Positions 26,500 to 47,013 of a DNA stretch of 64,000 nucleotides are shown piece by piece; positions within the stretch are counted from its first letter, which is position 1; each line of letters opens with the position of its first letter. The notes beneath the pieces were generated by a model. That model saw nothing but the letters and a program-made list of their open reading frames with translations. It did not search any database and was not told where the DNA came from. The DNA comes from Flavobacterium kingsejongi (GTDB lineage: Bacteria; Bacteroidota; Bacteroidia; Flavobacteriales; Flavobacteriaceae): positions 1,364,001-1,428,000 of the forward strand of contig NZ_CP020919.1 of the NCBI RefSeq assembly GCF_003076475.1, read 5' to 3'. The position numbers and the translations under genes were made by a program.

Positions 26500-26531
26500 A
26501 ACACCAATTTAACAGTTTAAAAGATATAGAA

Positions 26532-27463: not shown

Positions 27464-27475
27464 ATAAAAAAAAGC

Positions 27476-27527: not shown

Positions 27528-27550
27528 TCCCGTACAAAAGGACATAAATT

Positions 27551-27769: not shown

Positions 27770-27781
27770 AACAACCAAAAA

Positions 27782-29806: not shown

Positions 29807-29887
29807 TAAAAAACCGGTGTCACCCTGAGAAAGTCCGCCGGAAGATTACCCAACAATTAACACTTAACACTTAAACAATTCAAAAGT

Positions 29888-30733
29888 ATGGAATTTACAC
29901 AGAAACAACAAATTGTAGAAAGCTTATCAAATTACATCGCCCGTCACGAAAGCCAAAACAAAGCCGCACAATCGCTTAAAAATGTAAGTGCTGCCACTAT
30001 TTCCCAAATGATGAATAATAATTGGGATTTGATTACCGACGATATGTTTCGCAACGTCGCAGCACAAATCGGATCATCCACCGAATGGGTTTATGTTGAA
30101 ACCACCGACTACGTTAAAATGACCCTCTGTTTAGAAGATGCGAAAAAACATAGCATGGCAATGGGTATCATCGGGGCAGCTGGTTCCGGAAAATCACAAA
30201 CGGCAAAACTATTTGCTGCAAAGAATAAAAACGCTTACGTACTATCATGTAACGAGTTTTGGAACCGAAAAACATTTTTAACTGAATTGCTTACAGCGAT
30301 GGGTTATGATTCCGCCGGGCTTACGGTTGGCGATATGATGGCGGAGGTTGTACGCCGGCTTAAAGCAAAGGACGAGCCAATCGTCGTTTTAGACGAGGCA
30401 GACAAACTACCCGATCAGGTGTTATACTTCTTTATTACCCTTTTTAATGCATTAGAAGACCTTTGCGCCCTTGTAATGTGCGCAACGGATCATTTAGAGA
30501 AAAGAATTAGAAGAGGGCGCAAATTGAATAAAAAGGGGCATACCGAGATATACAGCCGATTAGGCCGCAAGTTCATTGAGTTAGGCGGGGTTACTTCTAC
30601 CGACGTATTTAAAATATGTAGTGCTAATGGGATAAGTGATAAGAGCATGGTTAAAGCTGTTGTTGAGGACTGCGAAAATGATTTAAGACGAGTTAAACGA
30701 AAAATACACGCTTTTAAAAGACAAATGGCATGA
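29888..30733 (+). CDS. MuB-type AAA ATPase, transposition target selector
   Basis: 281 residues. The N-terminal 70 residues are an HTH-like domain (NKAAQSLKNVSAATISQMMNNNW), then a P-loop GAAGSGKS (96-103), Walker B VVLDEADKL, and a sensor region ALVMCATDHLEKRIRRGRK. It matches MuB, which coats target DNA and delivers it to the transposase. The next ATPase gene overlaps its end by 4 nt (ATGA), showing tight coupling. Confidence 0.9.
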   Translation: MEFTQKQQIVESLSNYIARHESQNKAAQSLKNVSAATISQMMNNNWDLITDDMFRNVAAQIGSSTEWVYVETTDYVKMTLCLEDAKKHSMAMGIIGAAGSGKSQTAKLFAAKNKNAYVLSCNEFWNRKTFLTELLTAMGYDSAGLTVGDMMAEVVRRLKAKDEPIVVLDEADKLPDQVLYFFITLFNALEDLCALVMCATDHLEKRIRRGRKLNKKGHTEIYSRLGRKFIELGGVTSTDVFKICSANGISDKSMVKAVVEDCENDLRRVKRKIHAFKRQMA

Positions 30734-31362
30734 GTACAAGATTAAAGCGCGCGGTTTCAGTAGATGAAATAAAAAAGATGGTTTTTAAGGTGTTGCAACT
30801 GAATGCTTTTTGGCAAAAAATATTAGGGTTGCCGGAAGCGTCGGGCGTTTGGATAATATGGGGCAAATCAGGTTCGGGGAAGTCCCGGTTTAATATGATC
30901 CTGGCCAAAATGTTAACTGAGTTCGAAAAAGTAGCTTATAACTCCCTGGAAGAGGGCGCACGGTTATCGCTTCAAAAAAACATTAATGACTGTAAAATGA
31001 TAGAAGTTAAAGAAAAGTTTGTCATACTGGCCAGGGAGCCGATACCGGAACTAAAAGAACGGTTACGAAAAAAGAGGCGGCCGGGTATTGTTTTTATTGA
31101 TTCGTTACAATACACCGGATTAACCAAAAAGGAATATTTATCCCTAAAAGAAGAGTTTACCGACGTGCTTTTTATTTTCATAAGCCACGCCAACGGTACA
31201 GAACCAAAAGGCAGTGTCGCAGAATTTATACGGTATGATGCTGATATTAAAATCAGGGTAGAAGGTTTTAAAGCGTTTCCAATAAGCCGGTATGGCGGTG
31301 GTGAACCTTTTGTAATATGGCCGGAAGCGGCTGCGGAATATTGGAACGACTTAACAAATTAG
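30730..31362 (+). CDS. second P-loop ATPase (RecA/KaiC-like) coupled to the MuB-like gene
   Basis: 210 residues: Walker A IIWGKSGSGKSRFN (about 38-51), Walker B GIVFIDSLQYTG, then FIFISHANG resembling the motif 3 of RecA-type ATPases. It has no HTH and no other recognisable domain. Mu itself has only MuA and MuB, so its part in transposition or replication is unknown. The 4-nt overlap with the MuB-like gene argues for a joint function. Confidence 0.8.
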   Translation: MSTRLKRAVSVDEIKKMVFKVLQLNAFWQKILGLPEASGVWIIWGKSGSGKSRFNMILAKMLTEFEKVAYNSLEEGARLSLQKNINDCKMIEVKEKFVILAREPIPELKERLRKKRRPGIVFIDSLQYTGLTKKEYLSLKEEFTDVLFIFISHANGTEPKGSVAEFIRYDADIKIRVEGFKAFPISRYGGGEPFVIWPEAAAEYWNDLTN

Positions 31363-31366
31363 AGCA

Positions 31367-31738
31367 ATGGAAAACGATATTGAATGGTTCCTAAATCAAA
31401 AACCGGAACAAAGCGACAAGCCCCTGGAATTATATCACAAATGGTGTTTAAACAATTCGGTCTCTGAAAAACACTTCCAAAAGGTGTTTGCCAGTCCTAA
31501 AATATGCCACTGGTTTATGAACGAACTTAAAAAATGTAATGACGAATTTATAATGCTTTATGAGCGTTACGAAAATTTAAGCTTACTCGAAATTGGTGAC
31601 CTGTATGGTATATGTATCCTAAGAGTGTTTTCAATTTATCCCAAAACACTGTTAGACGCTGAACGCCCAAAGGAATTGCCTATGCCTTTTAAAATAGATG
31701 GGATTAGGCGACCGGAAGTTAAACTATGTTATAACTAA
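31367..31738 (+). CDS. hypothetical early phage protein
   Basis: 123 residues, mostly helical and acidic-to-neutral, not recognised. It starts 4 nt after the second ATPase and is part of the same early operon. Confidence 0.7.
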   Translation: MENDIEWFLNQKPEQSDKPLELYHKWCLNNSVSEKHFQKVFASPKICHWFMNELKKCNDEFIMLYERYENLSLLEIGDLYGICILRVFSIYPKTLLDAERPKELPMPFKIDGIRRPEVKLCYN

Positions 31739-31749
31739 ATAACTAAGCT

Positions 31750-31890
31750 ATGCGAAAAAACGAAATCAAATTAAAAATAATGTCTTTGGGTTTATGGTTG
31801 ATTGAAAACCCCGCCAGCCCCGAATATGGAATTATCCTACGAGACAAACAAAACCTTGAAAAACTCTTAAAAGAAAACGACAATGAATAA
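31750..31890 (+). CDS. 46-residue hypothetical phage protein
   Basis: Short frame beginning MRKNEIKLKIMSLGLWLIENP and ending LLKENDNE, then TAA at 31888. It is placed in a gap that would otherwise be empty and overlaps the next gene start by 8 nt, typical of phage operons. No function can be proposed. Confidence 0.55.
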   Translation: MRKNEIKLKIMSLGLWLIENPASPEYGIILRDKQNLEKLLKENDNE

Positions 31891-32158
31891 AGAAGAAATA
31901 CAGGAACGCTTAGTACTACTTTTTATAGTGCTTCAATTCGATACCCAGGAGAAAGCAATATTTACGGCTGGCGAACGAATAATGATTAACCAGGAGCGCG
32001 GCCATCTGCTTCATGAATTGGATTACTCCGACGCACCCACAAAACCAGTGTCAGCGGAAATCGAAGAAAAAATAAAAGAGGCTACCCGCTTAACCGGTGT
32101 TTACGACTGGGAACCCTTAGTACAAATCGACAAGCTTTACAAAAATGAAATCGAATAA
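31883..32158 (+). CDS. 91-residue hypothetical phage protein
   Basis: Helical, acidic protein (EIQERLVLLFIVLQFDTQEKAIF ...) without a recognised family. It overlaps its upstream neighbour by 8 nt. Confidence 0.65.
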   Translation: MNKEEIQERLVLLFIVLQFDTQEKAIFTAGERIMINQERGHLLHELDYSDAPTKPVSAEIEEKIKEATRLTGVYDWEPLVQIDKLYKNEIE

Positions 32159-32210
32159 CATAAATAATATTACTGTCATAGAACTACAATTAATTTCAAA
32201 TCAATTACCC

Positions 32211-33032
32211 ATGAACACACAAACAGAAAATGAAGCGTTTGAAACTTTTTTAAAGTCAGCTTCACGCCCCGAATCCTTTAAAACAAATCCCAATTATCCA
32301 AATGATACGCTACTGGAAGAAAGGTTATCCCAGATTCACAAATCGGACGTCGACAACTTTAACGAAACCCAAAAAGCAAAAGTGTTACAGCTGTCCGATG
32401 ATGAATTGAAAGCCGAATTAAATCGTCGTGAATCGGCAAAGGTATCGGCCAGGGAATCGTATAAAGATTTAGTTCAGGACACACTACCCAAAGCATTGTT
32501 AAACCTGACCGCTTTATCACAGCTTCTTTCCGAAGCTAAAAGGGATATTTTTAAATACTTCGAAAATATCCTGGAATTAAAAAGCCAGGTATTCGGAATA
32601 AAGGAAAAACAGCAAACCCACACCTTTAGCACAGAAATAGGCGAAATTACAATCGGGTACCGTGTAACAGATGGTTGGGACGACACCGCCAGCGCCGGGA
32701 TTGAAAAGGTATCGAAGTTTATAAATTCTTTGTCAAAAAATGCCGAAACTGCCGCCCTGGTCGATATGGTATTTAACTTACTGAAAAAGGATGCAAAAGG
32801 GAATTTGAAAGGCTCCAGGGTGTTGGAGTTGCAAAAGCTGGAAACGAAGTTTAATAACGCTGAGTTTTCCGACGGTGTTAAGATCATCGCAGCCGCTTAC
32901 AAGCCGGTACGGTCTTGCTGGTTCATTGAGGCCTACACTATCCTGGACGATGGCAAAAAGGTAAATATACCCCTGGCAATGTCCTCAGCTGATTTTCCCG
33001 CCGGTTATGAGTTTCAATTTAACAAATCATAA
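32211..33032 (+). CDS. DUF3164-like phage protein
   Basis: 273 residues from the ATG at 32211; a start at 32145 would add 22 residues but overlaps the previous gene and reads like leader sequence. The second half fits DUF3164: IGYRVTDGWDDTASAGIEKV, then LVDMVFNLLKKDAKGNLKGSRVLELQKLE, and a final SCWFIEAYT. DUF3164 proteins are common in Mu-like phages between MuB and GemA, as here; their function is unknown. Confidence 0.7.
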   Translation: MNTQTENEAFETFLKSASRPESFKTNPNYPNDTLLEERLSQIHKSDVDNFNETQKAKVLQLSDDELKAELNRRESAKVSARESYKDLVQDTLPKALLNLTALSQLLSEAKRDIFKYFENILELKSQVFGIKEKQQTHTFSTEIGEITIGYRVTDGWDDTASAGIEKVSKFINSLSKNAETAALVDMVFNLLKKDAKGNLKGSRVLELQKLETKFNNAEFSDGVKIIAAAYKPVRSCWFIEAYTILDDGKKVNIPLAMSSADFPAGYEFQFNKS

Positions 33033-33033
33033 C

Positions 33034-33231
33034 ATGTCCGTAAAAATCAAACCAATTACTGACCACGAAGTTTACGAGGTAAACGGGAAGGAAGTTTACA
33101 AGGATTCGTATAATAACTGGATCGCCAGGGAATCCCTGACCAGTGCAGAACATAAGGCATTTGCCAACTACAAACGGGGGGTTATTAATAACCCAGCTTT
33201 CAAGCCACATAAGCCCGCAACGTACTTATAA
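33034..33231 (+). CDS. 65-residue hypothetical phage protein
   Basis: Starts MSVKIKPITDHEVYEVNGKEV directly after the DUF3164 gene stop. It has the look of a small beta/alpha protein; no family recognised. Confidence 0.6.
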   Translation: MSVKIKPITDHEVYEVNGKEVYKDSYNNWIARESLTSAEHKAFANYKRGVINNPAFKPHKPATYL

Positions 33232-33273
33232 GTGCGTAAATAGTAATAAACTCAATTATTACATATAATAGTA

Positions 33274-33303
33274 ATCCCCGGCAAACTTAGCTGGGGATAT
33301 TTT
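33274..33303 (+). terminator. possible hairpin between early and middle phage genes
   Basis: ATCCCCGGC / GCTGGGGAT stem (one G-U pair) with a 7-nt loop, then ATTTT. It may be a terminator or attenuator; the tail is short. Confidence 0.45.
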
Positions 33304-33324
33304 AAAATTCAAAATAACGAGACA

Positions 33325-33756
33325 ATGACAACAGCAACCAAAGACCAAAAACTGGCTATCCGGCGAAATGTCGGCTACGATATCGGGGTAAAGGAGGAAT
33401 ATGTACAATGGGCTACCAACGACAACGCGAAAACAAGCCTTAACGACCTTTCTTTTGACCAGGCTAACCAAATCCTTATCAAGCAGGGAGAAAAGCCCCA
33501 CACAGGTGAAAATTGGGCTTATTTCGATGCCTTAAACCCAAAGCATAAAAAAATACTATCGCTGATGCGTGAATTGCAGTGGACGAAACCCCACCCAGTC
33601 CACCACGAAGTACCAAATATGCTACTGCTTAGTGATTTTTTAAAAAGTGATAAATCACCGGTTAAAAAGCCTTTAAAAGAAATGATAGACAATGAACTAT
33701 CCAAGATTATTAAAGCCCTCCAGCGTATTATCCTAACCACGAAATACAAAGTGTAA
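33325..33756 (+). CDS. GemA/Gp16-like phage regulatory protein (DUF1018)
   Basis: 143 residues. It shows the DUF1018 layout: an N-terminal helical segment beginning TKDQKLAIRRNVGYDIGVKEEY, a middle LNDLSFDQANQILIKQGEKP, and a C-terminal NPKHKKILSLMRELQW. Mu GemA (gp16) modulates host gene expression and DNA gyrase. It overlaps the next small gene by 1 nt (TAATG). Confidence 0.75.
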   Translation: MTTATKDQKLAIRRNVGYDIGVKEEYVQWATNDNAKTSLNDLSFDQANQILIKQGEKPHTGENWAYFDALNPKHKKILSLMRELQWTKPHPVHHEVPNMLLLSDFLKSDKSPVKKPLKEMIDNELSKIIKALQRIILTTKYKV

Positions 33757-33920
33757 TGGCAACGCAAAAAAAGGTAGGAACCTGGAGTATTCAAAAGAAA
33801 TGCAACCACGATATCGCATACATAGGAGTTGTGTCCATACAGGCCACATGTGAAACCACAGTTATGGTATGTGAGGACTGCAAAAAAGTATTAACTAAAC
33901 CCACCACCGAAGCATGTTAA
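33756..33920 (+). CDS. 54-residue zinc-ribbon-like phage protein
   Basis: Sequence starts MATQKKVGTWSIQKKCNHDIA and has CNHD, TCET and CEDCKK; the cysteines and histidine could bind a metal ion. It shares 1 nt with the GemA-like gene and 7 nt with the next, in a tight phage operon. Metal binding is inference. Confidence 0.6.
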   Translation: MATQKKVGTWSIQKKCNHDIAYIGVVSIQATCETTVMVCEDCKKVLTKPTTEAC

Positions 33921-34243
33921 AAATAGATTTAAAAATAAACTGGTCGCAATTCGAAGTAATTATTGAAAGTTTACAGGCTATGGAGCAAGTCCAAATAAAA
34001 ACCAGCGACCAAAGGTTTGTCCGCAGTATTCTATCAAAAACATCGGTTAAGCTTAAAAAGCAACATGTTGGCGGGCAGCTGCTGAGTGAGCAAAAGAAAA
34101 AAGCTGTAAAAATTAACCTTGAGTATCACGAAGCTGTAGCCTTAAATGGTATTTTATATGTCTATTCCCATTTAGTAAATGACACATATAAAAAAAATGC
34201 TTTGCTAATTATTACTAACGAATTAACGGAAAAAATAGCATGA
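33914..34243 (+). CDS. 109-residue hypothetical phage protein
   Basis: Helical and basic protein with a repeated Leu/Ile pattern (INLEYHEAVALNGILYVYSHL). No family recognised. It overlaps both neighbours (7 and 4 nt). Confidence 0.65.
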   Translation: MLKIDLKINWSQFEVIIESLQAMEQVQIKTSDQRFVRSILSKTSVKLKKQHVGGQLLSEQKKKAVKINLEYHEAVALNGILYVYSHLVNDTYKKNALLIITNELTEKIA

Positions 34244-34680
34244 GTAATTTTAAAACATTTTTTTTTGCAGAAACAATAGCTGAATCAATTAAAGCCGTTT
34301 CTGTAGCTTTTAAATCTGCTTCGCTATCAATAGGACTAATTAAAAAAAGAATGGAGCAGGAAGAACAGGCAGCCGAAAAGCGTTACGCAGCAATTGAAAA
34401 ACATAACAAGATAAATAATATTATTGTTATTGATGATATTGACGACGATACCGTAATTACCCAACAAACAAAAAAAAACTTGCTAAAATGGTACACCCTT
34501 CATAATCCCTCACGAAATTCCGGAAGACAGTATGCCGGGGATATGTATAACCGCTTTATGTTACAGCGGAAACGTAGGCCTATCAAATTGGGAGTACATA
34601 AGAGGTACCGAAAAGCCCGCCCGGATTATTGGATAACAAAATATTTTAGCTATGGAGCAAGTTACAACATATACAGTTAA
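34240..34680 (+). CDS. 146-residue hypothetical phage protein
   Basis: N-terminal 55 residues are amphipathic helix (KAVSVAFKSASLSIGLIKKRMEQ). An acidic spacer NNIIVIDDIDDDT follows, then a very basic C-terminus (RFMLQRKRRPIKLGVHKRYRKAR). The basic tail suggests nucleic-acid binding; a Mor/C-type late activator was considered from position but not supported by an HTH. Confidence 0.55.
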   Translation: MSNFKTFFFAETIAESIKAVSVAFKSASLSIGLIKKRMEQEEQAAEKRYAAIEKHNKINNIIVIDDIDDDTVITQQTKKNLLKWYTLHNPSRNSGRQYAGDMYNRFMLQRKRRPIKLGVHKRYRKARPDYWITKYFSYGASYNIYS

Positions 34681-35107
34681 AGCGAGGAACGCGCCAGGCC
34701 TTTGGGTCTTTAAATATCATTTAAACGGTGCTTTAAGTAGGTTCGAAGTCCTGGACGGAAACCTCACCCAAAAACAAATTAATTGGTTTTTTTACGATGG
34801 TAATTTTCCTGCAACCGAATCAGCTATGAAAACGGTTTGGATTCCGAAGGGTAAGGCTAATTTTGAGATTACAACGGCATTACCCGAATTAACTTTCGAA
34901 ACCCTTTGGAATCTTTACGATAATAAAGTTAAGCGAGTAGAGGCCGAAAAAGCCTTTAAAAAATTAAAGCCTGCCGACGTAATTAAATGCTTCCTGGCAA
35001 TCCCTGGTTATAATAGATACTTAGCCCGTAAAAATACAGCCAAAGCGCATTTATCAACTTTCATCAATCAGCAATATTACGCAGATGATTGGCAGAAAGC
35101 AGCTTAA
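34652..35107 (+). CDS. 151-residue phage protein with a replication-protein-like C-terminal helix bundle
   Basis: Residues of about 85-150 (TLWNLYDNKVKRVEAEKAFKKLKPADVIKCF ... FINQQYYADDW) resemble the small helical C-terminal domain often seen after phage replication or helicase-loader proteins. The N-terminal half is unrecognised. It overlaps the previous gene by 29 nt and is the last gene before the ATTCCAAAG repeats begin. Confidence 0.6.
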   Translation: MEQVTTYTVKARNAPGLWVFKYHLNGALSRFEVLDGNLTQKQINWFFYDGNFPATESAMKTVWIPKGKANFEITTALPELTFETLWNLYDNKVKRVEAEKAFKKLKPADVIKCFLAIPGYNRYLARKNTAKAHLSTFINQQYYADDWQKAA

Positions 35108-35117
35108 ACCTTTTTAA

Positions 35118-35171
35118 ATTCCAAAGATTCCAAAGATTCCAAAAATTCCAAAAATTCCAAAAATTCCAAAC
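35118..35171 (+). repeat. ATTCCAAAG repeat array A (6 units)
   Basis: Six consecutive 9-bp units: ATTCCAAAG twice, ATTCCAAAA three times, ATTCCAAAC once. It fills the gap before the first cargo gene. Confidence 0.9.
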
Positions 35172-35188
35172 TTACGGTTTTCCGTAAG
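35171..35188 (+). promoter_or_regulatory. hairpin after repeat array A
   Basis: CTTACGG-TTTT-CCGTAAG, perfect 7-bp stem, upstream of the first cargo gene. A near-copy (CTTACGGTTTTGCGTAA) lies at 51242-51258 at the prophage right end upstream of the minus-strand small gene. It could be an attenuator or a binding site. Confidence 0.5.
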
Positions 35189-35232
35189 GTTGGAATAATT
35201 GAAGTTTGTAACTTGCCTGGAAAAACAAAAAC

Positions 35233-35931
35233 ATGAACATTTTTAAATGGTTATTTTCCAGTTATAAAAAAAACGAAACTGTTGTTATCAATATTTTGGG
35301 AAAAGAATATATTATTGATTTGAGTAATGAGGCAACGAAAGAAAGAGCAGCAGAATTTGAGTTGCTTAAAAAAAAATCCTGGAAATCCAAAGGTTCGAAA
35401 AGACGTTCTTTAAACTCTTATGAACAAACTATAATTGGAAATACTGGTTTAATTAATTTTTCAGAAAGTGGTGAATATGCCGTAGCCTATTTATCTGCCG
35501 GCAATGATTCTATGAAAGGTTATATTTCATTAATACATACACCTAGGGAGAAAGTTTTATTTTCCATCGACGCTATACGTCCACATGATTGTAAAGTATC
35601 TAATAACGGTTTTATAGCATGTAACGACTGGGGGAAGGTTGCTAACTCTAAGGGTAAGTTTTTGATATATGACGTAAATGGAGAAATACATTACAAAAGA
35701 AGTATTAACGAAAATATAGGGGATTTATGTCTCATAACTCCTGACGGATCACTCGCAGTCTACGATACATTAAGTACGAATTCTTTGAGGGTTATAGATG
35801 TTAAAAATAAAAAACAACTCAAATCATTTGATAAGTACTCTACAAATGTAATGCGAGCCGAATTCGAAGGAAAAACAATAATTTTTGAATATAACTCCCC
35901 AAAAAGAAATTTAAAAATAATAAACGAATAA
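35233..35931 (+). CDS. cargo protein with beta-propeller-like repeats
   Basis: 232 residues. After a basic N-terminus, the sequence alternates short beta strands in a WD40/propeller-like pattern (TGLINFSESGEYAVAYLSAG, DCKVSNNGFIACNDWGKV, DLCLITPDGSLAVYDTLS). No catalytic motif is visible. It is more AT-rich than the tail genes, lies between repeat arrays A and B, and is not a usual phage structural gene; it is probably an accessory (moron) gene. Function unknown. Confidence 0.6.
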   Translation: MNIFKWLFSSYKKNETVVINILGKEYIIDLSNEATKERAAEFELLKKKSWKSKGSKRRSLNSYEQTIIGNTGLINFSESGEYAVAYLSAGNDSMKGYISLIHTPREKVLFSIDAIRPHDCKVSNNGFIACNDWGKVANSKGKFLIYDVNGEIHYKRSINENIGDLCLITPDGSLAVYDTLSTNSLRVIDVKNKKQLKSFDKYSTNVMRAEFEGKTIIFEYNSPKRNLKIINE

Positions 35932-35954
35932 TTGGAATTCCAACTATTCCAAAA
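35932..35954 (+). repeat. ATTCCAAAG repeat array B with TTGGAATTCCAA palindrome
   Basis: Units ATTCCAACT and ATTCCAAAA (35937-35954). The first is part of the perfect 12-bp palindrome TTGGAATTCCAA (35932-35943). It fills the gap between cargo genes 1 and 2. Confidence 0.8.
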
Positions 35955-35965
35955 CACTATTAAAA

Positions 35966-36487
35966 ATGGCTATACCCTTAGAATTTGTATCACATATAAA
36001 AGACAAACCTACCTATTTCGCGGAAAAGATTATTAAAGGAATATGCGATCGTAAGCCGATGTATTTTTTGATTGAAGCCGAACAACGCCGCCCGCTAAAT
36101 TTTGATAAAAAGGTTTATTTCACTTGTGGTGAAAAAATACATACAATTAGAAAAGACGAGCAGAATGTTTGGGAAATTAGGGAGGTTATAATCCCTGTGT
36201 TACGATTAGTTTCCGAAAACCCCGACCAAAACCCAACGATCCAGTTTGCACCAGCTTTTCATTGTATGGGAATTCAAAAAGTAGTAATGGTTATCACGGA
36301 TAATAATATCCAAATTACAATTGATGGCCGCCCAATACATGAAATATTTGAAAGGCTAAAATTTGCACTAAATGACGGATTCGACTATTGGAGTGATTTT
36401 GCAGCCTATTGGAAGCCGATTATAAAAAAATCACCCCAGGGCGTGTATCAAGGCAAAATAATCCATTTTACAGGGTTTCTATATTAA
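35966..36487 (+). CDS. cargo protein 2, ASCH-like fold suspected (paralogue of the next gene)
   Basis: 173 residues. It starts LEFVSHIKDKPTYFAEKIIKG and contains GEKIHTIRKDEQNVWEIREV, which recalls the KxHTIRxD...W pattern of ASCH-type proteins seen in mobile elements, and ends GKIIHFTGFLY. It is clearly related to the next gene (same DKPTYFAEK opening, FDYWSDFAAYW/FDTWADFSDYW, and IHFT ending). The nucleic-acid role of ASCH proteins is known only in part, so function is inferred weakly. Confidence 0.6.
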   Translation: MAIPLEFVSHIKDKPTYFAEKIIKGICDRKPMYFLIEAEQRRPLNFDKKVYFTCGEKIHTIRKDEQNVWEIREVIIPVLRLVSENPDQNPTIQFAPAFHCMGIQKVVMVITDNNIQITIDGRPIHEIFERLKFALNDGFDYWSDFAAYWKPIIKKSPQGVYQGKIIHFTGFLY

Positions 36488-36491
36488 TGGA

Positions 36492-36527
36492 ATTCCAAAG
36501 ATTCCAAAGATTCTAATTATTCTAAAA
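36492..36527 (+). repeat. ATTCCAAAG repeat array C (4 units)
   Basis: ATTCCAAAG, ATTCCAAAG, ATTCTAATT, ATTCTAAAA in perfect 9-bp phase between the two paralogous cargo genes. Confidence 0.85.
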
Positions 36528-36537
36528 CGTTAAAAGT

Positions 36538-37059
36538 ATGGTATTAAATTTTTTATCACAGATAAATGATAAGCCGACGTATTTTGCCGAAAAACTTACA
36601 AAGGGGTTGCTTCAAAACAAGGATATCCAATTAAGGGAACAAATGATAGATCGGGTGCGGGTATTATTTGATGCTGATGTGTATGCCTGCTGTGCCCCGA
36701 AAATACATGAGATAATCGACTTTAATTTATACTTTGAGCCGCACGAATACATTGTGCCAACTATAGCCGTTATCCGTAAAAAAATGGGCGAACTCAAGTG
36801 TTATGAAATGGTTCACATTTCACGGCCATTTAAAATTAACGGCTACCAAAATGTAATTATTGAAGCTGATAAAACTAATTTGCAAATATCTGTTAACGGC
36901 CGTAAATCGTACGATAAGGCCGCCAGCTTAAAGTTTGCCGTTAATGAGGGTTTCGACACCTGGGCGGACTTCTCAGACTATTGGCGACCGAAAGCCGAAA
37001 AATGCCGGGATAATATATATTTTGGCCGCATGATCCATTTTACAGATTTTAGGTATTAA
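36538..37059 (+). CDS. cargo protein 3, paralogue of cargo protein 2
   Basis: 173 residues, identical in length to its neighbour and sharing its N-terminal DKPTYFAEK, central PKIHEII, and C-terminal GFDTWADFSDYWRP and MIHFTDFRY. The HTIR segment of the paralogue is replaced (KIHEIIDF), so the two copies have diverged in the probable active region. A tandem duplication followed by divergence is inferred. Confidence 0.6.
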   Translation: MVLNFLSQINDKPTYFAEKLTKGLLQNKDIQLREQMIDRVRVLFDADVYACCAPKIHEIIDFNLYFEPHEYIVPTIAVIRKKMGELKCYEMVHISRPFKINGYQNVIIEADKTNLQISVNGRKSYDKAASLKFAVNEGFDTWADFSDYWRPKAEKCRDNIYFGRMIHFTDFRY

Positions 37060-37064
37060 TTAGG

Positions 37065-37100
37065 ATTCTAAAGATTCCTGTTATTCCAAAGATTCCAAAT
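37065..37100 (+). repeat. ATTCCAAAG repeat array D (4 units)
   Basis: ATTCTAAAG, ATTCCTGTT, ATTCCAAAG, ATTCCAAAT in 9-bp phase, after cargo gene 3 and before the gene cut by the IS21. Confidence 0.85.
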
Positions 37101-37157
37101 TGAGTAAAACCGTAATTATTAAAGAATGAATATATTTAATTTTGAAAAAAAAATGTC

Positions 37158-37317
37158 ATGGATGATAATAAGACAGCTTATGAAATATGGGTAGAACATA
37201 AAGAGAGTATGCGTAAAATGGAGAAGCGGCACCGTAAAGAAAAGTGGTTTTTAATAATTGCAACAATTGTTATTTTATCGGCACCAGTAGGTGTTTTAGT
37301 GCAAATTCCGGTTATAT
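37158..37317 (+). pseudogene. 5' fragment of a small membrane-protein gene cut by IS21
   Basis: About 53 residues of phage sequence (MDDNKTAYEIWVEHKESMRK, then a membrane helix around WFLIIATIVILSAPVGVLV) run into the IS21 end, where the frame stops at 37352 inside the element. A holin or small membrane protein is possible but cannot be shown. The matching 3' part is not found on the other side of the IS21. Confidence 0.6.
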
Positions 37318-37459
37318 TGATCACCCCATTCCGTTTTAAAGTGAGCACCTGATTCCAGTTCAAAATGACCACCTAATTCCGGTGCAAAGTGAGCACCTCC
37401 GTTTTGATTAAAAACTATATTTTTTCATCTGTTAATTAGTATTCAAATATAATAAAATA

Positions 37460-38197
37460 TCACTCTTTGTTTATTCCTCTTTTCTTTCTCATGGATTCTC
37501 CATGTAATTCAAGCCTATGAGATTGGTGTATAAGTCTGTCTAATATTGCATCGGCTATCGTTTTTTCTCCAATTATATCATACCAGCCTTGAACTGGTAT
37601 TTGTGATGTCACGATTATAGAGCCGTTATTATGCCTGTCCTCTATGATCTCTAAAAGAGTAATTCGGTTATGGCTGTCAAGTGCCTGGAGTCCAAAATCA
37701 TCAAGTATTATAACATCCTGTCTTTGTATTTTGGTAAGTTCCCGTAGATAAGTACCATCTGCTTTAGCCATTTTTAGTCTAGCGAACAATTTTAAGGTAT
37801 TAAAATAACTTACCTTAAAACCCTGTATACAGGCTTGATAACCTAATGCAGTACCTAAATAACTTTTACCGACACCGGTGCTTCCAGTGATTAAAATGTT
37901 TTCGTTTTTCTCTATAAATTCGCATTCTGCCAGACGCAGTACCATGTTTCGGTCCAGGTTACGTGATACATCAAAATTGATACTTTCAATATTTGATTTG
38001 TAATGGAATTTGGCATTAGTGATACTTCGTTCAATACGACGATTGTACCTTTCATCCCATTCTGCATCAATAATCATCGATACAAACTGGTCAAGGGTAT
38101 AATGATCTGTTTTCCCGCTTTCAATGGCTGTTTTAAAAGCATTAAACATGCCATAAAGCTTCATTTGTTTCATTTTGGTTACTGTGGATTCATTCAT
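37460..38197 (-). CDS. istB: IS21 helper ATPase IstB
   Basis: 245 residues. DnaC-like AAA ATPase with Walker A ITGSTGVGKSYLG, Walker B VIILDDFGLQ, and the IstB signature TSQIPVQGWYDIIGE and AILDRLIHQSHRLELHG. It aids IstA in target capture. The start is 16 nt after the istA stop. Confidence 0.95.
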   Translation of the reverse strand: MNESTVTKMKQMKLYGMFNAFKTAIESGKTDHYTLDQFVSMIIDAEWDERYNRRIERSITNAKFHYKSNIESINFDVSRNLDRNMVLRLAECEFIEKNENILITGSTGVGKSYLGTALGYQACIQGFKVSYFNTLKLFARLKMAKADGTYLRELTKIQRQDVIILDDFGLQALDSHNRITLLEIIEDRHNNGSIIVTSQIPVQGWYDIIGEKTIADAILDRLIHQSHRLELHGESMRKKRGINKE

Positions 38198-38213
38198 TTT
38201 TTCAAGATTTAAT

Positions 38214-39761
38214 TTAGTTATAATAGTGTTTTCCTCTTATGTTACTGTGATCGGGAAGTTCCTGCTCAGGTTCTTGATCAAAATCAATATGATCCAAGTT
38301 GTTTTCTAAAATGTTTTGTATGGTCTTAAAATTGTAAATTTTAAAATCAAGTGCCCGCCTGCAGGCATTTATTAATCGCTGTCTGCCTACCTTTTTTTCA
38401 AAATTCAGTATTCCTAAACAGCTTTTATAAGCCTGTTCTGGATGATTTCTGCTTTCGATTATCTGCATTATATATTCTCCTACTGACTCATCAATATTAT
38501 TAGCCCATTCAATGAAGCGGGCAGCACTCCATTGGGCTACAAATTGATGTGTACTGGCTAAATGCTCAGGAGTTGTTGTATAGACATAAGGTTTGTAGTT
38601 TCTTGGATGTACAGCTATTCGATTGTATTTATAATAAATCTCTACTGTTGATTTGGTATATAACAGCTTGGCTTTCTTCTTTACATATTGATACGGAACG
38701 CTGTAATAGTTTTTGTCCTGGCTTAATTGAACATGACCGTTTTGCATTACTGTTGCAAAAGACTGGTATTTAATTTCAAAACGATCTTGTGGGAGTGGAC
38801 GCAGTTTTTCTTTCTCGTCTTCTAAAAATAATTCAAAGCGGGAATAAGGGCGTCCTGTCAGTTTTCTGTTATTGTGAGAGTCAAGTAAATCCCAGATCTG
38901 CTGGTTTAATTCTTCCAGAGAAAAGAACTTAGTTTCTTTTATGGTTACATAAATCCTTCGATATAATATCTTAACAGCTCCTTCAACTAGTGACTTGTCT
39001 CTGGGCCTGTAAGCTCTGGCAGGTAAAATTGTGGTTTCGTAATGTTCTGCTAAATCAGCCAGGGTTTCATTGATTGTCGGTTCAAAACGACTGCTTTTTA
39101 TTACGGCAGATTTTAAATTATCTGGAACAATGGCGGCAGGAGTGCCTTCAAAAAAGCGCATGGCATTTTCTACCGAGTCAACAAAGTTTTCCTTTTGCTG
39201 GCTCATGGAAGCTTCAGCATACGTGTATTGGCTAGCGCCCAATATTGCTACAAAAAATTGTACTTCTTTGACTTCTCCAGTATCTATATCAATAATTGAG
39301 AGTGTCTTTCCGGCATAATCAACATACATTTTATCACCAGCCTTATGGTTCATATGCATGACCGGATTAACTCGTTTGCCCCATATATTGTAATGATAAT
39401 GAAATTGTGAAGTTCGATAACCATCAGGATTTACAGCAATATATTGTTCCCACATATGCTGTACGGTAACGCCAACTTTTTTTAGTTCACGTTCCATTTT
39501 AGGAAAAAAATCATAAAGTGTCTGTAATCTCGGGCTAATGGCCTCTACACTAGTCTGGGAGAATAAAAGTTCCAGCTCTGCATCGGTTTTTTGGTCGATT
39601 AATTCAAAGCTTAATTCGAGAACTTCAAATAAAGAAATATATTTCTTTACCGTATTTCTTGAAAGGGATAAGTAGCTACTTATAAATAACTTACTCTTTC
39701 CATTACAATAGAATTTAATTACTTTTCTAATTTTACTCATGTCTGTTATTTTGTTTGCCAT
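38214..39761 (-). CDS. istA: IS21 transposase IstA
   Basis: 515 residues. N-terminal HTH (KSKLFISSYLSLSRNTVKKYI), an rve catalytic domain with MYVDYAGK (Asp), AIVPDNLKSAV (Asp) and DKSLVEGAVKILYRR (Glu), and the Mu-like C-terminal beta-domain (NYYSVPYQYVKKKAKL). It is intact, so the element may still be active. Confidence 0.95.
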   Translation of the reverse strand: MANKITDMSKIRKVIKFYCNGKSKLFISSYLSLSRNTVKKYISLFEVLELSFELIDQKTDAELELLFSQTSVEAISPRLQTLYDFFPKMERELKKVGVTVQHMWEQYIAVNPDGYRTSQFHYHYNIWGKRVNPVMHMNHKAGDKMYVDYAGKTLSIIDIDTGEVKEVQFFVAILGASQYTYAEASMSQQKENFVDSVENAMRFFEGTPAAIVPDNLKSAVIKSSRFEPTINETLADLAEHYETTILPARAYRPRDKSLVEGAVKILYRRIYVTIKETKFFSLEELNQQIWDLLDSHNNRKLTGRPYSRFELFLEDEKEKLRPLPQDRFEIKYQSFATVMQNGHVQLSQDKNYYSVPYQYVKKKAKLLYTKSTVEIYYKYNRIAVHPRNYKPYVYTTTPEHLASTHQFVAQWSAARFIEWANNIDESVGEYIMQIIESRNHPEQAYKSCLGILNFEKKVGRQRLINACRRALDFKIYNFKTIQNILENNLDHIDFDQEPEQELPDHSNIRGKHYYN

Positions 39762-39923
39762 AATCCGTAAATTTTTAACGAATGTATGGTTCTAACAACA
39801 TGAAAAAATCAATAGTTTTTAATACTTAATTCACCACAAAACTTGGTGGTCAATTTGCTCCGGAATTAGGTGGTCAGTTTGCTCCGGAACGGGTGGTCAA
39901 TTTACTCCGGAATTAGGTGGTCA

Positions 39924-40183
39924 AATTGACCGGTTTTTCCACCCTGACTTTGAAAGATAATACCGTCCAATCCTTTACCCGATCAAAAATGGAAAGTTTG
40001 GAAAAGTCGGAAAACACCGGAAAGGAGTACTATATCGTAGACCTGGTTAATATTGACCCTCTTACGGCCAGTTATGAAGATTTAAAGGCACTTTCGAAAG
40101 GGCTTTCCCTTGGTACTGCCGGTAAAACAAAACAGGACTATATCGCTGCTATTGAAGTTGCAAAAGCTGAACTTAACGCATAA
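39924..40183 (+). pseudogene. 3' fragment of a phage gene before the tail sheath
   Basis: The frame enters from the IS21 (LTGFSTLTLKDNTVQSFTRSK...) and ends AELNA, 1 nt overlapping the sheath ATG. The last 35 residues (LKALSKGLSLGTAGKTKQDYIAAIEVAKAEL) look like a small HeH/SAP-type helical motif found at the ends of Mu-like head or connector proteins (gp35-38 region). The 5' part was lost with the head module. Translation from the internal ATG at 39989 is possible. Confidence 0.6.
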
Positions 40184-41343
40184 TGGCACAAGGTACAGGA
40201 ACCCCCGGCGTAACAGTAGCTGTCACGTCAGGGAACCTGCAGCGCCCAGTCCCTGTACTGGACGGCATTGCAGGAATCATGGGAACGGCTTATACCGTTG
40301 CAAACATCGGTGTCGTTAAAACGGTTTATGGGTACGACGATGCTGTGGAAAAAGGATATACCCCGGAATTAGAGCCTTTTTTGAATAAGCAACTAAGGGA
40401 GTTTTACAACGAATTGGGCGGAACTCAGGAAGTTTGGGTTTTGGGAGTTGAAGATACTATGCTGTTAAAAGATATGGTTAGCACAACGAATGCGAACGGG
40501 CTTAAAAAGCTTTTAGCGGTAAGCCGTGGAAGGGTAAATATGCCTTATATCTGCCGCAAGCCGGACGCAACCTACACCCCGCCAGTTGCATTTTTGGACA
40601 AAGATGTTTCCGACGCTGTTACGGCTTCAAAAGCACTTTGCCAATACCAGCAAAAAATAAACCAGCCAATCAGATTACTAATTGAGGGGCGTGTCGTGGA
40701 CGTTGACCAGGCTAACACGTTTATGCCGGCTACTGCGTCGAATACTTACGTCGGTGTAGTGTTGGGTGGTTCTTTGGCTGATGGCTCCGCAAGTGGCTCC
40801 GTAGCACTGGCCAGGGCGATTAAATACGGCGCACATGTAAAAATAGGGAACGGCCAAAATGGCGCGCTGACTATTACACCCGTGTTTATCGGCGATCGTC
40901 CTTTGGAAGAATTTTTCCCGGAAGAACTGGACAACCTGAGCGATGCAGGGTATATCATTTTTCATCACCGCGACGGTGCCGCAGGGTATTATTTCGGGAT
41001 TGATAAAATGGCCGGAAACGATGATTTTGAAATCCTGGCTTACGGCCGAATGATGGATAAAGTACAACGTATCGCTACAGCTACCAGTATGCCATTTGTT
41101 GAAACATCGGTACGTATGAACCCGGACGGAACCATCAACGATGCAGATGCGCAATACCTGGAGGACTTGATCAAAACGGCAATTTTAGCCGGTACGGAAG
41201 CTCAGCTGAGCGCGGTAGATGTAATTATCCCTACTGCCCAAAATATCATTAATACCAGCACCCTGTCGATACAGGTAAAAATACAACCATTAGGGTACCT
41301 GACCTGGATTAATATAACAATGGGTTTAACTACTAATCTATAA
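40183..41343 (+). CDS. contractile tail sheath protein (DUF2586-like)
   Basis: 386 residues. It starts GTGTPGVTVAVTSGNLQRPVPV, like the DUF2586 sheath proteins of Bacteroidetes Mu-type phages. It ends with the typical sheath C-terminal domain (SAVDVIIPTAQNIINTSTLSIQVKIQPLGYLTWINITMGL), which interlocks neighbouring subunits. It surrounds the tail tube and contracts. It is the first complete gene of the late tail module and is followed 3 nt later by the tube gene, the standard order. Confidence 0.85.
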   Translation: MAQGTGTPGVTVAVTSGNLQRPVPVLDGIAGIMGTAYTVANIGVVKTVYGYDDAVEKGYTPELEPFLNKQLREFYNELGGTQEVWVLGVEDTMLLKDMVSTTNANGLKKLLAVSRGRVNMPYICRKPDATYTPPVAFLDKDVSDAVTASKALCQYQQKINQPIRLLIEGRVVDVDQANTFMPATASNTYVGVVLGGSLADGSASGSVALARAIKYGAHVKIGNGQNGALTITPVFIGDRPLEEFFPEELDNLSDAGYIIFHHRDGAAGYYFGIDKMAGNDDFEILAYGRMMDKVQRIATATSMPFVETSVRMNPDGTINDADAQYLEDLIKTAILAGTEAQLSAVDVIIPTAQNIINTSTLSIQVKIQPLGYLTWINITMGLTTNL

Positions 41344-41346
41344 TCA

Positions 41347-41787
41347 ATGAATGTAAATATAACCTCTTCGGAATGTGCTTGGTCACAGTTCGAAATCAAA
41401 TTATTAGGGCGTACAATAAAAGGCCTCCGGGGGTTCAGTTTGAAAAAAGAAGTCGAAAAGGAACACTTATACGGTAGCGGTTCCGACCCTATTGATATCA
41501 TGACCGGAAATAAGAAGTACGACGGAAATATCAAGCTTTTAGGCTTCGAAGCGGATGCCATGAACAAAGCTGCAAAAATAGCGGGCTACGATGATATAAC
41601 CGAAGTGCCTCACGAAACAATTGTAATTACAGTCTCTTATAAAAAAAGGGCTACCGATGCCATTTCGACGTATGTCGCCAGCGGTGTGGCTTTCACTGAG
41701 ACGGGTGTCGAACTGGAGCAAAACGCCAAAAACCGGGAAATAACATTGCCATTTATCGCAATGAATATATCCCACTCAGTCGCTTAA
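41347..41787 (+). CDS. tail tube protein
   Basis: 146 residues, beta-rich: NITSSECAWSQFEIKLLGRTIKGLRGFSLKKEVEKEHLYGSG with later TDAISTYVASGVAFTE. Its size and its position directly after the sheath fit the inner tube of a contractile tail (Mu gpM position). Assigned from context and fold pattern. Confidence 0.78.
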   Translation: MNVNITSSECAWSQFEIKLLGRTIKGLRGFSLKKEVEKEHLYGSGSDPIDIMTGNKKYDGNIKLLGFEADAMNKAAKIAGYDDITEVPHETIVITVSYKKRATDAISTYVASGVAFTETGVELEQNAKNREITLPFIAMNISHSVA

Positions 41788-41813
41788 AACTAACAAAAAA
41801 ATAAAAAAAGACA

Positions 41814-42218
41814 ATGTCTAAAAACGTAAAAAGTGCTTTCGCGGCACGTCAAGCAAAAGAAATCAGTAAAGCAGAAACGCCAAAAGTAACAGCGGATAAT
41901 AACCTGGGAGCATTCGAAAAAAGGTTTACCCTGGCACAGCTGGAAAATTGGAAAAAACAGTATGGTGGTCGTGAATTGATTTTGTTACATGTAGGTAGTT
42001 CTTTGGCCGTATTACGACCACCAACGGCGGACGATTTAGGGGATTATATGACTACGATCGGAACGGCCTCTTTAGGTAAGGCAGTAGCCCTGATTATGGA
42101 AGCGCTTTGGATCGATGGCGATATCGATTTGATTGATGACGAGGACAAATTTATCGCGGTGTTTTTACAAATAAATAACATCTTGGAAGGGAAGAAAGCC
42201 GACTTTTTTCGCTTTTAG
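41814..42218 (+). CDS. tail assembly chaperone, upstream frame (gpG-like)
   Basis: 134 residues, charged N-terminus (MSKNVKSAFAARQAKEISKAE), then a helical domain ending EGKKADFFRF. It sits just before the tape measure, the position of gpG/gpGT chaperones in tailed phages. A six-T run just before its stop allows a shift into the 42208-42390 frame. Confidence 0.75.
   Translation: MSKNVKSAFAARQAKEISKAETPKVTADNNLGAFEKRFTLAQLENWKKQYGGRELILLHVGSSLAVLRPPTADDLGDYMTTIGTASLGKAVALIMEALWIDGDIDLIDDEDKFIAVFLQINNILEGKKADFFRF
42204..42210 (+). other. probable programmed frameshift site TTTTTTC in the tail chaperone gene
   Basis: In frame the sequence reads GAC TTT TTT CGC TTT TAG. The -2 (or +1) frame continues TTC GCT TTT AGT AAC and stays open for 60 codons to 42390. 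The -1 frame closes after 27 codons. Mu uses a -2 shift at the same genetic position, known for its tail chaperones. The six T's let a phenylalanine tRNA re-pair after a 2-nt slip. Confidence 0.75.
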
Positions 42219-42390
42219 TAACAAAGGCCAAAAAGACTGTGAAGACCGCACCGCTGGTATTGATTTCCTTATTGTGTTCGGCTCTATGAGGTTCGGCGCA
42301 AATGCCCTAAAAGAATGGGGTGATAATTTATTTTTCTACCGTACCGGTATTGCCCTGAAATTATGGGAAATGCAAGGTTCCCAACAATAA
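42208..42390 (+). CDS. tail assembly chaperone, frameshifted extension (GT-like)
   Basis: 60 residues reached only by frameshifting: FAFSNKGQKDCEDRT, GIDFLIVFGSMRFGANALK, EWGDNLFFYRTGIALKLW. No ATG/GTG start with reasonable spacing lies at its 5' end. The fused product would be about 192 residues. It ends 7 nt before the tape-measure ATG. Confidence 0.72.
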   Translation, partial: FAFSNKGQKDCEDRTAGIDFLIVFGSMRFGANALKEWGDNLFFYRTGIALKLWEMQGSQQ

Positions 42391-42397
42391 CCTACAC

Positions 42398-44107
42398 ATG
42401 AGTAATATAGTTGAATTTGTCGTAAAAATGCGTGATATGATGTCTGGCCAAATTGGCCGGCTCAATTCCACGACCGGTCGCGCCTTTACCAACATGAGCC
42501 GACAGGCGCAAAACGTTACCCGTAGAAACCAGGTATTAGGCCAAAGTTTTTCCCAGTTACAGCGCAACATCCAACAGGTAAATAATACGATCAGTACCTC
42601 GACCATACCAAGTCAGATAGCATCCGCCAGGCGTGAATTAGCAGCTTTAGAACGTCAGGCCTCACGGCATTCAGGCAATACTTCTCGTGGCGGTGGCGGA
42701 AGTTCCGGCGGTGGCGGTGGTATGTCTACCGGTTCAATGGCTATCGGTTCATGGATTGGCGGATTGGCCTTGCAAATCGGTAACGCAATTGCTGGAGTAA
42801 TATCCAGTAGTTTGGGTACCATCATTTCCAAGACCATGAAAAAGGAGCAGGATATCGTCGGCTTAAGTACCTTTTTGGGAAAGGATGGGGCAGATAAGGC
42901 CTATAAGAATATCCGTAAAGATGCCGACGTAACGCCATTTGATACCGATTCCCTGGTAATGGTAAACCGTTCGCTGATATCGGCGGGGCTATCGGCAGAG
43001 GCTGCCCGTCAAGATACATTACACCTTGTAAACGCCATTTCGGCCGTGGGGGGTGGTAACGATGTTCTTAGCCGTATGGCGGCCAATATGCAGCAAATTA
43101 AAACGGTGGGTAAAGCTACGGCGATGGATATCCGCCAGTTTGGTATCGCCGGTATTAATATCTATGCGATGTTAGCGAAGTCAACCGGGAAGTCAATCGA
43201 CCAGGTTAAGGAAATGGAAGTTTCTTACGATGATCTTTCTAAAACCCTCGCTATGGCAGCCGATAAAGGCGGTATTTATGCTGGAGCAATGGAGGCGATG
43301 AGCCGCACCAAATTTGGCCGCTGGTCTACTATCCAGGATAAAATAAGCAATACGGCTTCCGATATTGGCGATGCCTTTTCCGTGGTTTTTGATCGAATTT
43401 TGGATATGGGTGTCCAGTTTTCAGAAAGCATTCCTGCCATGTTAGCCCGCGCCCAGCCTTATATTGATATGATTTCTACGGGTGTCGGTCGTGTGATTGA
43501 CTATGTTACGGATATTGTTAACGGTACAAGCGGATGGAATGATTATATAATAGTTATAGTCCAGGCCTTTAAAGACGTTTACAGGTATTCTGTAATTATC
43601 GGCGAAAAGATATATCGTTTTGTTAGTTCGTTTTTGGATTTCGTACAGAAATCGGAAATATTAAAAGACGTGTTTCGCCTTATTGGATGGATCATTGAAA
43701 AAGTAGTCCAGGTAATATCGTCCCTTATGGATACTATTTTATGGCTATGGGACAATATTGTTAAACCAATCCTGGAAGCCATAGACAAGGCCTACAAGTG
43801 GATAAAAGGGGTTGACGATGTGGAAGTAAAAGCGACTAAAAAATTAGTTGCCCCAAAGGCTGAAAAGAAAGAAGATACCCCGTTTGTGCCAATGGCAGCC
43901 ACTGCGGCGGGTAACGATGCGTCGGGTAAAGCTGTCGCGGATTCGGTTGTCGGTGGTGGGCCAAAAGTGGTTAATATCCACGTTGGTAAATTCTTCGATA
44001 ACCTCCAGTTCACGACGCTTAACTCAACCGAAACCGCCCAGGAGATTGAAAACTTAATTATGGAATGTATGGCGCGTGTGGTTTATAACGGTTCTAAAAT
44101 GATTTAA
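42398..44107 (+). CDS. tail tape measure protein
   Basis: 569 residues. Helical N-terminus (VEFVVKMRDMMSGQIGRLN), a Gly/Ser-rich stretch (about 98-112, GGGGSSGGGGG), and a hydrophobic segment (about 118-145, GLALQIGNAIAGVISSS). Further hydrophobic helices lie in the C-terminal third (VVQVISSLMDTILWLWDNIVKPI). The tape-measure segment KTVGKATAMDIRQFGIAGINIYAMLA is characteristic. It sets tail length; 569 residues would give a tail of roughly 85 nm by the 1.5 Å per residue rule. It follows the chaperone pair, as expected. Confidence 0.9.
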   Translation: MSNIVEFVVKMRDMMSGQIGRLNSTTGRAFTNMSRQAQNVTRRNQVLGQSFSQLQRNIQQVNNTISTSTIPSQIASARRELAALERQASRHSGNTSRGGGGSSGGGGGMSTGSMAIGSWIGGLALQIGNAIAGVISSSLGTIISKTMKKEQDIVGLSTFLGKDGADKAYKNIRKDADVTPFDTDSLVMVNRSLISAGLSAEAARQDTLHLVNAISAVGGGNDVLSRMAANMQQIKTVGKATAMDIRQFGIAGINIYAMLAKSTGKSIDQVKEMEVSYDDLSKTLAMAADKGGIYAGAMEAMSRTKFGRWSTIQDKISNTASDIGDAFSVVFDRILDMGVQFSESIPAMLARAQPYIDMISTGVGRVIDYVTDIVNGTSGWNDYIIVIVQAFKDVYRYSVIIGEKIYRFVSSFLDFVQKSEILKDVFRLIGWIIEKVVQVISSLMDTILWLWDNIVKPILEAIDKAYKWIKGVDDVEVKATKKLVAPKAEKKEDTPFVPMAATAAGNDASGKAVADSVVGGGPKVVNIHVGKFFDNLQFTTLNSTETAQEIENLIMECMARVVYNGSKMI

Positions 44108-44108
44108 T

Positions 44109-44717
44109 ATGCTTTTTGACGTAAAAGAATTATACAAACAGACTTTCGGAAGTTCTAATTTTCACGTTCCGGCAAAAGGGTCAGACAAAACAAAGTCTTC
44201 CACTATTTTGTTGGGCGGCATTCCCCAAAACCCCAACCCTGCCGGGACTATTCAATATAATAGTAAACAAATATCCCTAAATAAACAGGGGCTATATGGT
44301 CAGGAGATTTGGCACCCAATCGCCTTATGGCGGTCATCGGAAAAAGTCCTGGAGATTGACAATTGCACGATGCGGGTTAATGTGGTAAAAACGATTGTAC
44401 GCACGGCGGTATCAGAGCGTAAAGGGACGGTAAAGGAACAGTTCAGTATTGACGATTATAAGTTTACGATTAAAGGCTTTTTAATCGGTAAAAATCGAAA
44501 GTTTCCTGAGGAAGATATTATTAAGCTAAAGGAGATATTCGAATCAAACGACCCGATCAGCTTACATGGTGGATATCCTGAATTGTTCCTGGATGATTCC
44601 TGCCGGATCGTTATTGATACCCTTGATTTTCCCGACGTCCAGGGTAAAGCGCATTGGATTCGTCCATTTTCGTTTACCTGTGAAAGTGACTTTATAACCG
44701 ATTTAATTATTCAGTAA
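44109..44717 (+). CDS. baseplate/tube-initiator protein, DUF6046-like
   Basis: 202 residues. It contains GGIPQNPNPAGTIQYNSKQISLNK, WHPIALW, and EIDNCTMRVNVVKTIVRTAVSERKGTVKEQFSIDDYKFTIKGFLIG, which fits the DUF6046 pattern of Bacteroidetes phages. Its place between tape measure and hub suggests a tail-terminal connector. It overlaps the next gene by 1 nt (TAATG). Confidence 0.65.
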   Translation: MLFDVKELYKQTFGSSNFHVPAKGSDKTKSSTILLGGIPQNPNPAGTIQYNSKQISLNKQGLYGQEIWHPIALWRSSEKVLEIDNCTMRVNVVKTIVRTAVSERKGTVKEQFSIDDYKFTIKGFLIGKNRKFPEEDIIKLKEIFESNDPISLHGGYPELFLDDSCRIVIDTLDFPDVQGKAHWIRPFSFTCESDFITDLIIQ

Positions 44718-45709: not shown

Positions 45710-45711
45710 GT

Positions 45712-46418: not shown

Positions 46419-46419
46419 C

Positions 46420-46713: not shown

Positions 46714-46715
46714 AA

Positions 46716-47012: not shown

Positions 47013-47013
47013 C

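Follow-up and report, generated by a model that had tools for sequence, protein, structure and literature searches.

The stretch of DNA analysed here (the window) comprises 64,000 nucleotides of the Flavobacterium kingsejongi chromosome (NZ_CP020919.1, positions 1,364,001 to 1,428,000) and contains a Mu-like prophage, copy A, located between the biotin genes bioF and bioD (gene names by reading of the open reading frames, ORFs). We confirmed that copy A has lost its head and DNA packaging genes at the place where an IS21-family insertion sequence (IS) now sits, as a first-pass annotation of the window had claimed; the cell-lysis genes were apparently lost there too. Relatives with homologous early and tail genes carry a head module at this place. 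We attribute the loss with considerable confidence to an IS21-linked removal of the head module from the prophage, either by recombination between two IS21 copies or by an IS21-mediated deletion of adjacent DNA.

Copy A retains both ends of a transposable phage (Table 1). Its end points were set by comparison with the other copies in the genome, with the CATAT repeat also in view, among a few possible frames. This 5-bp target duplication adjoins both ends of the element, so copy A entered the site by one event. The element is 25,248 bp long, or 22,606 bp without the IS, in line with the initial estimate of about 22.6 kb. The early genes, with a repressor, a MuA-type DDE transposase and a MuB-type ATPase, lie to the left of the IS21, and a tail operon running from the sheath to the fibre lies to the right, the same arrangement as first described. 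Scanning 30 element proteins against PHROGs, which left out two small ORFs (27551-27769 and 33007-33231), gave no convincing terminase, portal, protease, capsid or lysis protein, which bears out their reported absence. The product of 41347-41787 did receive a 'major head protein' label (phrog_9206); it also matches a tail family and occupies the tube position, directly after the sheath. Copy A therefore has the transposition genes and target duplication of a Mu-like phage and none of its terminase, portal, MuF and capsid genes. As neither the element nor the rest of the genome matched head or packaging genes, we regard it as a defective derivative and not as a phage. It shares with tailocins a contractile tail operon without head genes; the lysis genes of a tailocin are missing, since the 30 scanned proteins include no lysis family.

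The head block is present in the closest relative, the prophage of Flavobacterium sp. '19STA2R22 D10 B1' (L038/L068/L069), where it lies between the early genes and the tail operon. Homology to copy A extends over the early genes up to a 151-aa gene (54% identical) and over the tail operon (44-71% identical). A comparison with related Flavobacterium prophages, proposed earlier as a check, gave homologous early genes and homologous tail genes joined by a head module at the IS21 position. On the strand opposite the tail, the block of L038 encodes a 166-aa protein, a virion morphogenesis protein (PF05069), MuF (PF04233), the portal (PF06074), a 152-aa protein and the large and small terminase; on the tail strand, it encodes the protease, the capsid, a 95-aa protein, a CHAP lysin (PF05257), an Rz-like protein and the product of a 120-aa gene. 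The large terminase was named from annotated phage records, while the small terminase, protease, capsid and Rz were named by position and reading, with no Pfam match where scanned. Because the CHAP lysin lies inside the head block of this relative, a deletion of the block removes the lysin as well.

To estimate how much is missing, we compared the distances between early genes and sheath. The interval from a phrog_8581-like gene to the sheath, measured in four IMG/VR loci, is 10.5-12.4 kb, against 482 bp in the window without the IS; some relatives carry phrog_8581 homologues in the space that separates the early genes from the head module. Measured from the 151-aa gene, the sheath is 10.9 kb away in the L038 phage and 11.2-15.2 kb away in seven IMG/VR loci, against 2.4 kb in the window. 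These distances put the loss at about 10-12 kb (8.5-12.7 kb by a second measure), which lowers the 12-15 kb of the original estimate. The 50 IMG/VR loci had been found via the terminase and carry head genes by construction; we used them for gene order and distance only. Small terminase and protease are separated by a divergent region of 0.14-0.16 kb that contains conserved blocks in six relatives and that copy A has lost together with the head block. The Bacteroidetes -7 box was not found in this region of the six relatives or at window positions 39600-40400, and one conserved 13-base block that we sought in the window gave one site with 2 mismatches, against 1.33 expected by chance.

The insertion sequence itself was assigned to the IS21 family from PF22483, a Mu-type C-terminal domain in the product of the gene that we take to be istA, and from its ends, which are repeated and inverted; the other gene is presumably istB. 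An initial 2606-base query matched 27 full-length, near-identical (about 100%) places in the genome, and because the identity of the compared copies continues for another 18 bases beyond this query on either side, the IS extends from 37300 to 39941. Flanks were compared at 29 loci, of which 28 (the 27 full-length copies and one interrupted copy) had both flanks. A target duplication of 5-7 bp, as left by a simple IS21 insertion, was found at 5 of these 28 copies. The window copy has none, its flanks reading GTTTTAG on the left and CCCTGAC on the right.

Two unrelated truncated sequences meet at this IS21. The right remnant lacks about the first 40 residues of the 120-aa gene (local score of 107, compared with a best score of 56 in 2000 shuffles), whereas the truncation on the left is deduced from the junction. 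In six relatives, the corresponding stretch holds varied small genes, some of which begin with a membrane segment, which is no proof of homology. The earlier claim of one truncated gene on each side, not halves of a single gene, therefore stands for the right side and for the lack of relationship, is indirect for the left side, and needed its borders moved to 37158-37299 and 39942-40183. The lack of a target duplication, together with the joining of two different truncated sequences, indicates that this IS21 is not a simple insertion, and supports the IS21-mediated deletion first suggested. We also considered a relocation of the head module by inversion and found no support for it: among the 29 IS21 loci, there was no right flank that agreed in at least its first 6 bases with the left flank of the window copy, and no left flank that agreed with its right flank. 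Among the 28 copies with both flanks, none has a flank that pairs with that of another copy, and near 2.59 and 2.64 Mb there are two pairs of IS21 copies with one flank in common each. The unpaired flanks and the 5 target duplications among 28 copies hint at many IS21-IS21 deletions across the chromosome.

We then compared relatives at large. A set of 398 same-genus genomes was searched with tail DNA, so that head genes did not guide the choice of loci. Matches were found in 62 of them, the window's own genome included, many covering short tail stretches, and we fetched eight regions from seven genomes, chosen among the matches listed. Seven of the eight regions contain the sheath gene (52-59% identical), with a capsid gene upstream in all seven; portal and terminase are present in six, and the contig of the seventh ends in the capsid gene. 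The genome G671 holds two copies of a related head-bearing phage (C3:9183 and C5:2327542), with identical match statistics. The locus of G444 (L165, C64:11699-13411) has a tape measure gene 55% identical and host-type neighbours, with no sheath and no head match in the 11.7 kb before the tape measure gene. We counted it as neither a head-bearing nor a headless relative, and it may be another decayed remnant.

A sheath protein search of 397 family genomes gave a match in nine besides the window's own, with head genes near the sheath in six (G245, G199, G389, G322, G364 and G123). The loci of the other three, G320 (L070/L166), G023 (L072/L167) and G235 (L074/L168), are contractile tail operons with host-type neighbours and no transposase match, and their sheaths are 23-31% identical to that of the window. 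The L038 terminase, portal, MuF and capsid were unmatched on either side of these sheaths, and none was recognised among the ORFs; PHROGs covered eight G320 proteins, two G023 proteins and no G235 proteins, so an unfamiliar head is conceivable. The G320 locus retains a repressor, a phrog_846 protein, an amidase beside the sheath and a spanin-like gene (by reading). The G023 locus retains a homologue of the 95-aa gene, the lysin neighbour in L038, and an Rz-like gene (by reading), and its weak match to the 152-aa protein falls among host-type genes. The three look like natural tailocin loci of the same phage lineage.

Head or terminase genes of the same phage elsewhere in the genome, named at the outset as evidence that would speak against a loss, were not found. 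The relative's terminase and capsid queries gave no match elsewhere in the 4.22 Mb genome, searches that had no control of their own, although the terminase query does match homologues in other fetched family genomes. Genome searches with PF04233 and PF06074 also gave no match; these models recognise the MuF and portal of the relative, respectively, while the control genomes for PF06074 gave no signal.

DNA searches with both halves of copy A revealed three more broken copies, B (L062), C (L064) and D, each of which stops at an IS21. Compared with copy A, copy B has 20 substitutions in the first 195 bp, followed by one substitution and one 1-base gap over 13.6 kb to the IS end. The left IS junction is common to A and B, which occupy different sites; the IS must therefore have resided in the phage before the one copy arose from the other. 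Copy B equals copy C over the first 200 bp; it is a mosaic, with its first ~200 bp as in copy C and the remainder nearly as in copy A, which suggests recombination among resident copies. The idea that B and D are halves of one prophage is not supported, as the 5 bases adjoining their ends differ (GGATT and CATCA).

The copies also differ in other ways. In the repressor of copy C (L064:8058-8882), the C-terminal half is as in A and the N-terminal, DNA-binding half is different by eye, as if immunity had been swapped. The region to the right of the IS21 in copy C (L064:13383-19001) is part of an apparently different prophage, with a 578-aa portal-like protein (by reading) and a 739-aa fibre, a stretch of which is 40% identical to the window fibre. 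The terminal repeats of copy A, at 26121, 26213, 51319 and 51341, all read CGAATTGTAC or CGAATAGTAC, while the matching sites of copy B (left end) and copy D (right end) read TGAATTGTAC. Copy D differs from A at only four positions in 2.4 kb, two of which fall in these sites. This is a coordinated change at sites that may bind the transposase.

We propose the following history for the IS21-linked removal. Two IS21 elements of like orientation would have inserted, one into a small accessory gene that immediately preceded the head module and the other into the pre-sheath gene. The ~10-12 kb between them would then have been lost, either through homologous recombination of the two elements or through a deletion of adjacent DNA mediated by IS21, so that a single IS21 with mismatched flanks was left. 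With 27 full-length near-identical copies available, recombination between two same-orientation copies would be the simplest path, although we infer both this step and its timing with regard to the element's duplication.

Several observations weigh against this reconstruction. We saw no intermediate in which a head module is enclosed by two IS21 copies. As many as 23 of the 28 IS21 copies have no target duplication, so that its absence is common in the genome and not specific to this site. The transposases of the relatives are ~30% (L068) to 63% (L083) identical to that of copy A, for which reason the exact gene content of the lost block is deduced. No relative is near-identical in both halves. 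A tblastn search of the left remnant against the fetched loci returned copy B alone and no full-length homologue. Naturally headless relatives, whose existence had been named as grounds for doubt, are not found among the closer same-genus relatives, but apparently do exist in the three distant loci with 23-31% sheath identity. Furthermore, as copy B shares the left IS junction, the deletion may have occurred in another copy before A reached its site, and it may have preceded or followed the move between the A and B sites. Finally, an assembly collapse between two identical IS copies would look alike.

A variant that is compatible with the IS21-linked removal, and to which we give a rather small probability, places the deletion elsewhere, after which the headless element would have jumped to the present site. 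The MuA and MuB genes are open, CATAT flanks both ends, and copy B, at another site, agrees with copy A in its left IS21 junction and repressor and is near-identical over 11 kb. However, copy B lacks the right half and so does not show that a headless unit moved, and a complete IS-bearing phage that moved first fits equally. It is improbable that an IS21-head module-IS21 arrangement is truly present and that the assembler merged identical IS copies. The 27 full-length places, 2.6 kb long and ~100% identical, are a typical assembler trap, but the host chromosome is one 4.22 Mb contig with 99.86% completeness, which suggests long reads; the biotin genes are colinear on both sides, both prophage ends carry CATAT, and copies B, C and D are likewise cut at IS21. 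We see only a slim chance that copy A, headless as it is, acts as a self-mobile Mu-type transposon that carries a tail, and that IS21 thereby made an intermediate between a transposable phage and a host tail weapon, of which the G320, G023 and G235 loci would be older, stabilised outcomes. It is very unlikely, too, that copy A has evolved into a functional tailocin which the host keeps as a weapon, the IS21 being incidental. The open tail genes, colinear with the relative, and the apparently headless loci of the same family could speak for this reading. Against it, no lysis family was found among the 30 scanned proteins of copy A, in contrast to the amidase of G320 and the 95-aa homologue and Rz-like gene of G023; the divergent region that separated the head operons has been lost; head genes persist in the seven same-genus sheath regions; and recency explains the open tail genes, the copies being 99.8% identical.

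Following the IS21-linked removal, copy A is best read as a defective prophage and not as a working tailocin. Judging from its gene content, its tail operon would be without its native late promoter and lysis genes, no virion would be made, and probably no tail is released. With its transposition genes and ends intact, the element could still move.

Table 1 Features of copy A in window coordinates, and the other copies in genome coordinates.
Feature	Position	Strand	Remarks
Left CATAT of the 5-bp target duplication	26103..26107	.	left flank ...AAGCATAT then AAGGGC
Mu-like prophage copy A	26108..51355	+	both ends present, interrupted by IS21; homology with B, C (left) and D (right) ends within 0-3 bases
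Phage-type repressor	26648..27463	-	phrog_4, E 1.1e-15
MuA-like transposase, 674 aa, open	27782..29806	+	phrog_310, E 3.9e-74; 41% to Bacteroides hankyphage transposase
MuB-like transposition ATPase	29888..30733	+	phrog_296, E 3e-52
Second ATPase	30730..31362	+	phrog_6891, E 7.5e-68
phrog_846 protein	32145..33032	+	E 7.5e-27; presumably Gam-like
Two related phrog_8581 genes, last intact genes before the break	35966..37059	+	PHROGs
Left remnant, 5' end of a small membrane-protein gene (by reading)	37158..37299	+	cut by the IS; truncation deduced from the junction
IS21-family element	37300..39941	-	2642 bp; istB 37460-38197, istA 38214-39761; no target duplication
Right remnant, 3' two thirds of the pre-sheath gene	39942..40183	+	colinear with the L038 120-aa gene from about residue 43
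Tail sheath (DUF2586)	40183..41343	+	71% to Flavobacterium sp. prophage
Tube, tape measure, baseplate hub, spike, baseplate and collar genes	41347..49175	+	open, colinear with the relative, 44-71% to L038; some named by position only
Tail fibre	49177..50988	+	by position and similarity: first 228 residues 54% to L038; no PHROG match
Right CATAT of the 5-bp target duplication	51356..51360	.	right flank CATATACTT
Copy B (L062)	C1:1655627-1666685		left half; ends at IS21 with the same left junction as the window copy
Copy C (L064)	4199637-4202739		94% identical; cut by IS21 inside the transposase gene
Copy D	3942389-3944757		last 2.4 kb; starts at IS21

Around copy A, two IS3-type elements (by reading) at 21509-22809 and 54888-56188, with identical ORFs, lie in the same orientation ~32 kb apart. 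They bracket the biotin genes and the prophage, and recombination between them could delete the whole block. The left prophage end adjoins an AI-2E-type permease gene (by reading; 25002-26234) that now forms two ORFs, apparently through a frameshift; the prophage lies at the 5' end of this gene.

Copy A illustrates ordinary prophage decay in a well-resolved form: the break is mapped to the single base, the missing module is seen in relatives, and three further copies of the same phage, each cut by the same IS, lie in one chromosome. In the literature searched, we found nothing that joins a Mu-like prophage, Flavobacterium and an insertion sequence. Loss of lytic genes in connection with IS elements is a known trait of decayed prophages. 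Incomplete prophages have been described as preferentially losing lytic genes and as enriched in transposases (PMC7744054). Copies A-D provide a clean case of IS expansion dismantling a transposable phage.

Among known systems, the prophage of Flavobacterium sp. '19STA2R22 D10 B1' is the most similar, with the same gene order and identities of 71% in the sheath, 71% in the baseplate hub and 60% in the tape measure protein; it differs in having the head module, and its transposase is only 30% identical. Hankyphage (Bacteroides phage p00) and its relatives have a transposase 41% identical over 98% of its length, and the terminase of this group is 49% identical to that of the Flavobacterium relative. 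They infect another host, their records span 40.6-46.2 kb, and those used for the terminase comparison carry an annotated terminase. A transposable myophage of Flavobacterium columnare, fF4, has been described together with fF4-like prophages; fF4 is 31,958 bp long, has a contractile tail and makes virions (PMC7761591). Its repressor and MuA- and MuB-like genes come first, followed by head genes (MuF, DUF935 portal, terminase, protease and capsid) and tail genes, whereas copy A has an IS21 in place of the head and packaging block. An endolysin-like gene precedes the head genes of fF4, so that the place of the lysin varies within the group.

The R-type tailocin BceTMilo resembles copy A in having a contractile tail operon without head genes. 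BceTMilo is related to the P2-like phage KL3 and has lysis genes (PMC5411513), while copy A is Mu-like and has none that we recognised. The same paper suggests that deletion of head genes is sufficient, regulation aside, to make a tailocin (PMC5411513). The position of the lysin within the head block of the closest relative of copy A suggests that head deletion alone need not do so.

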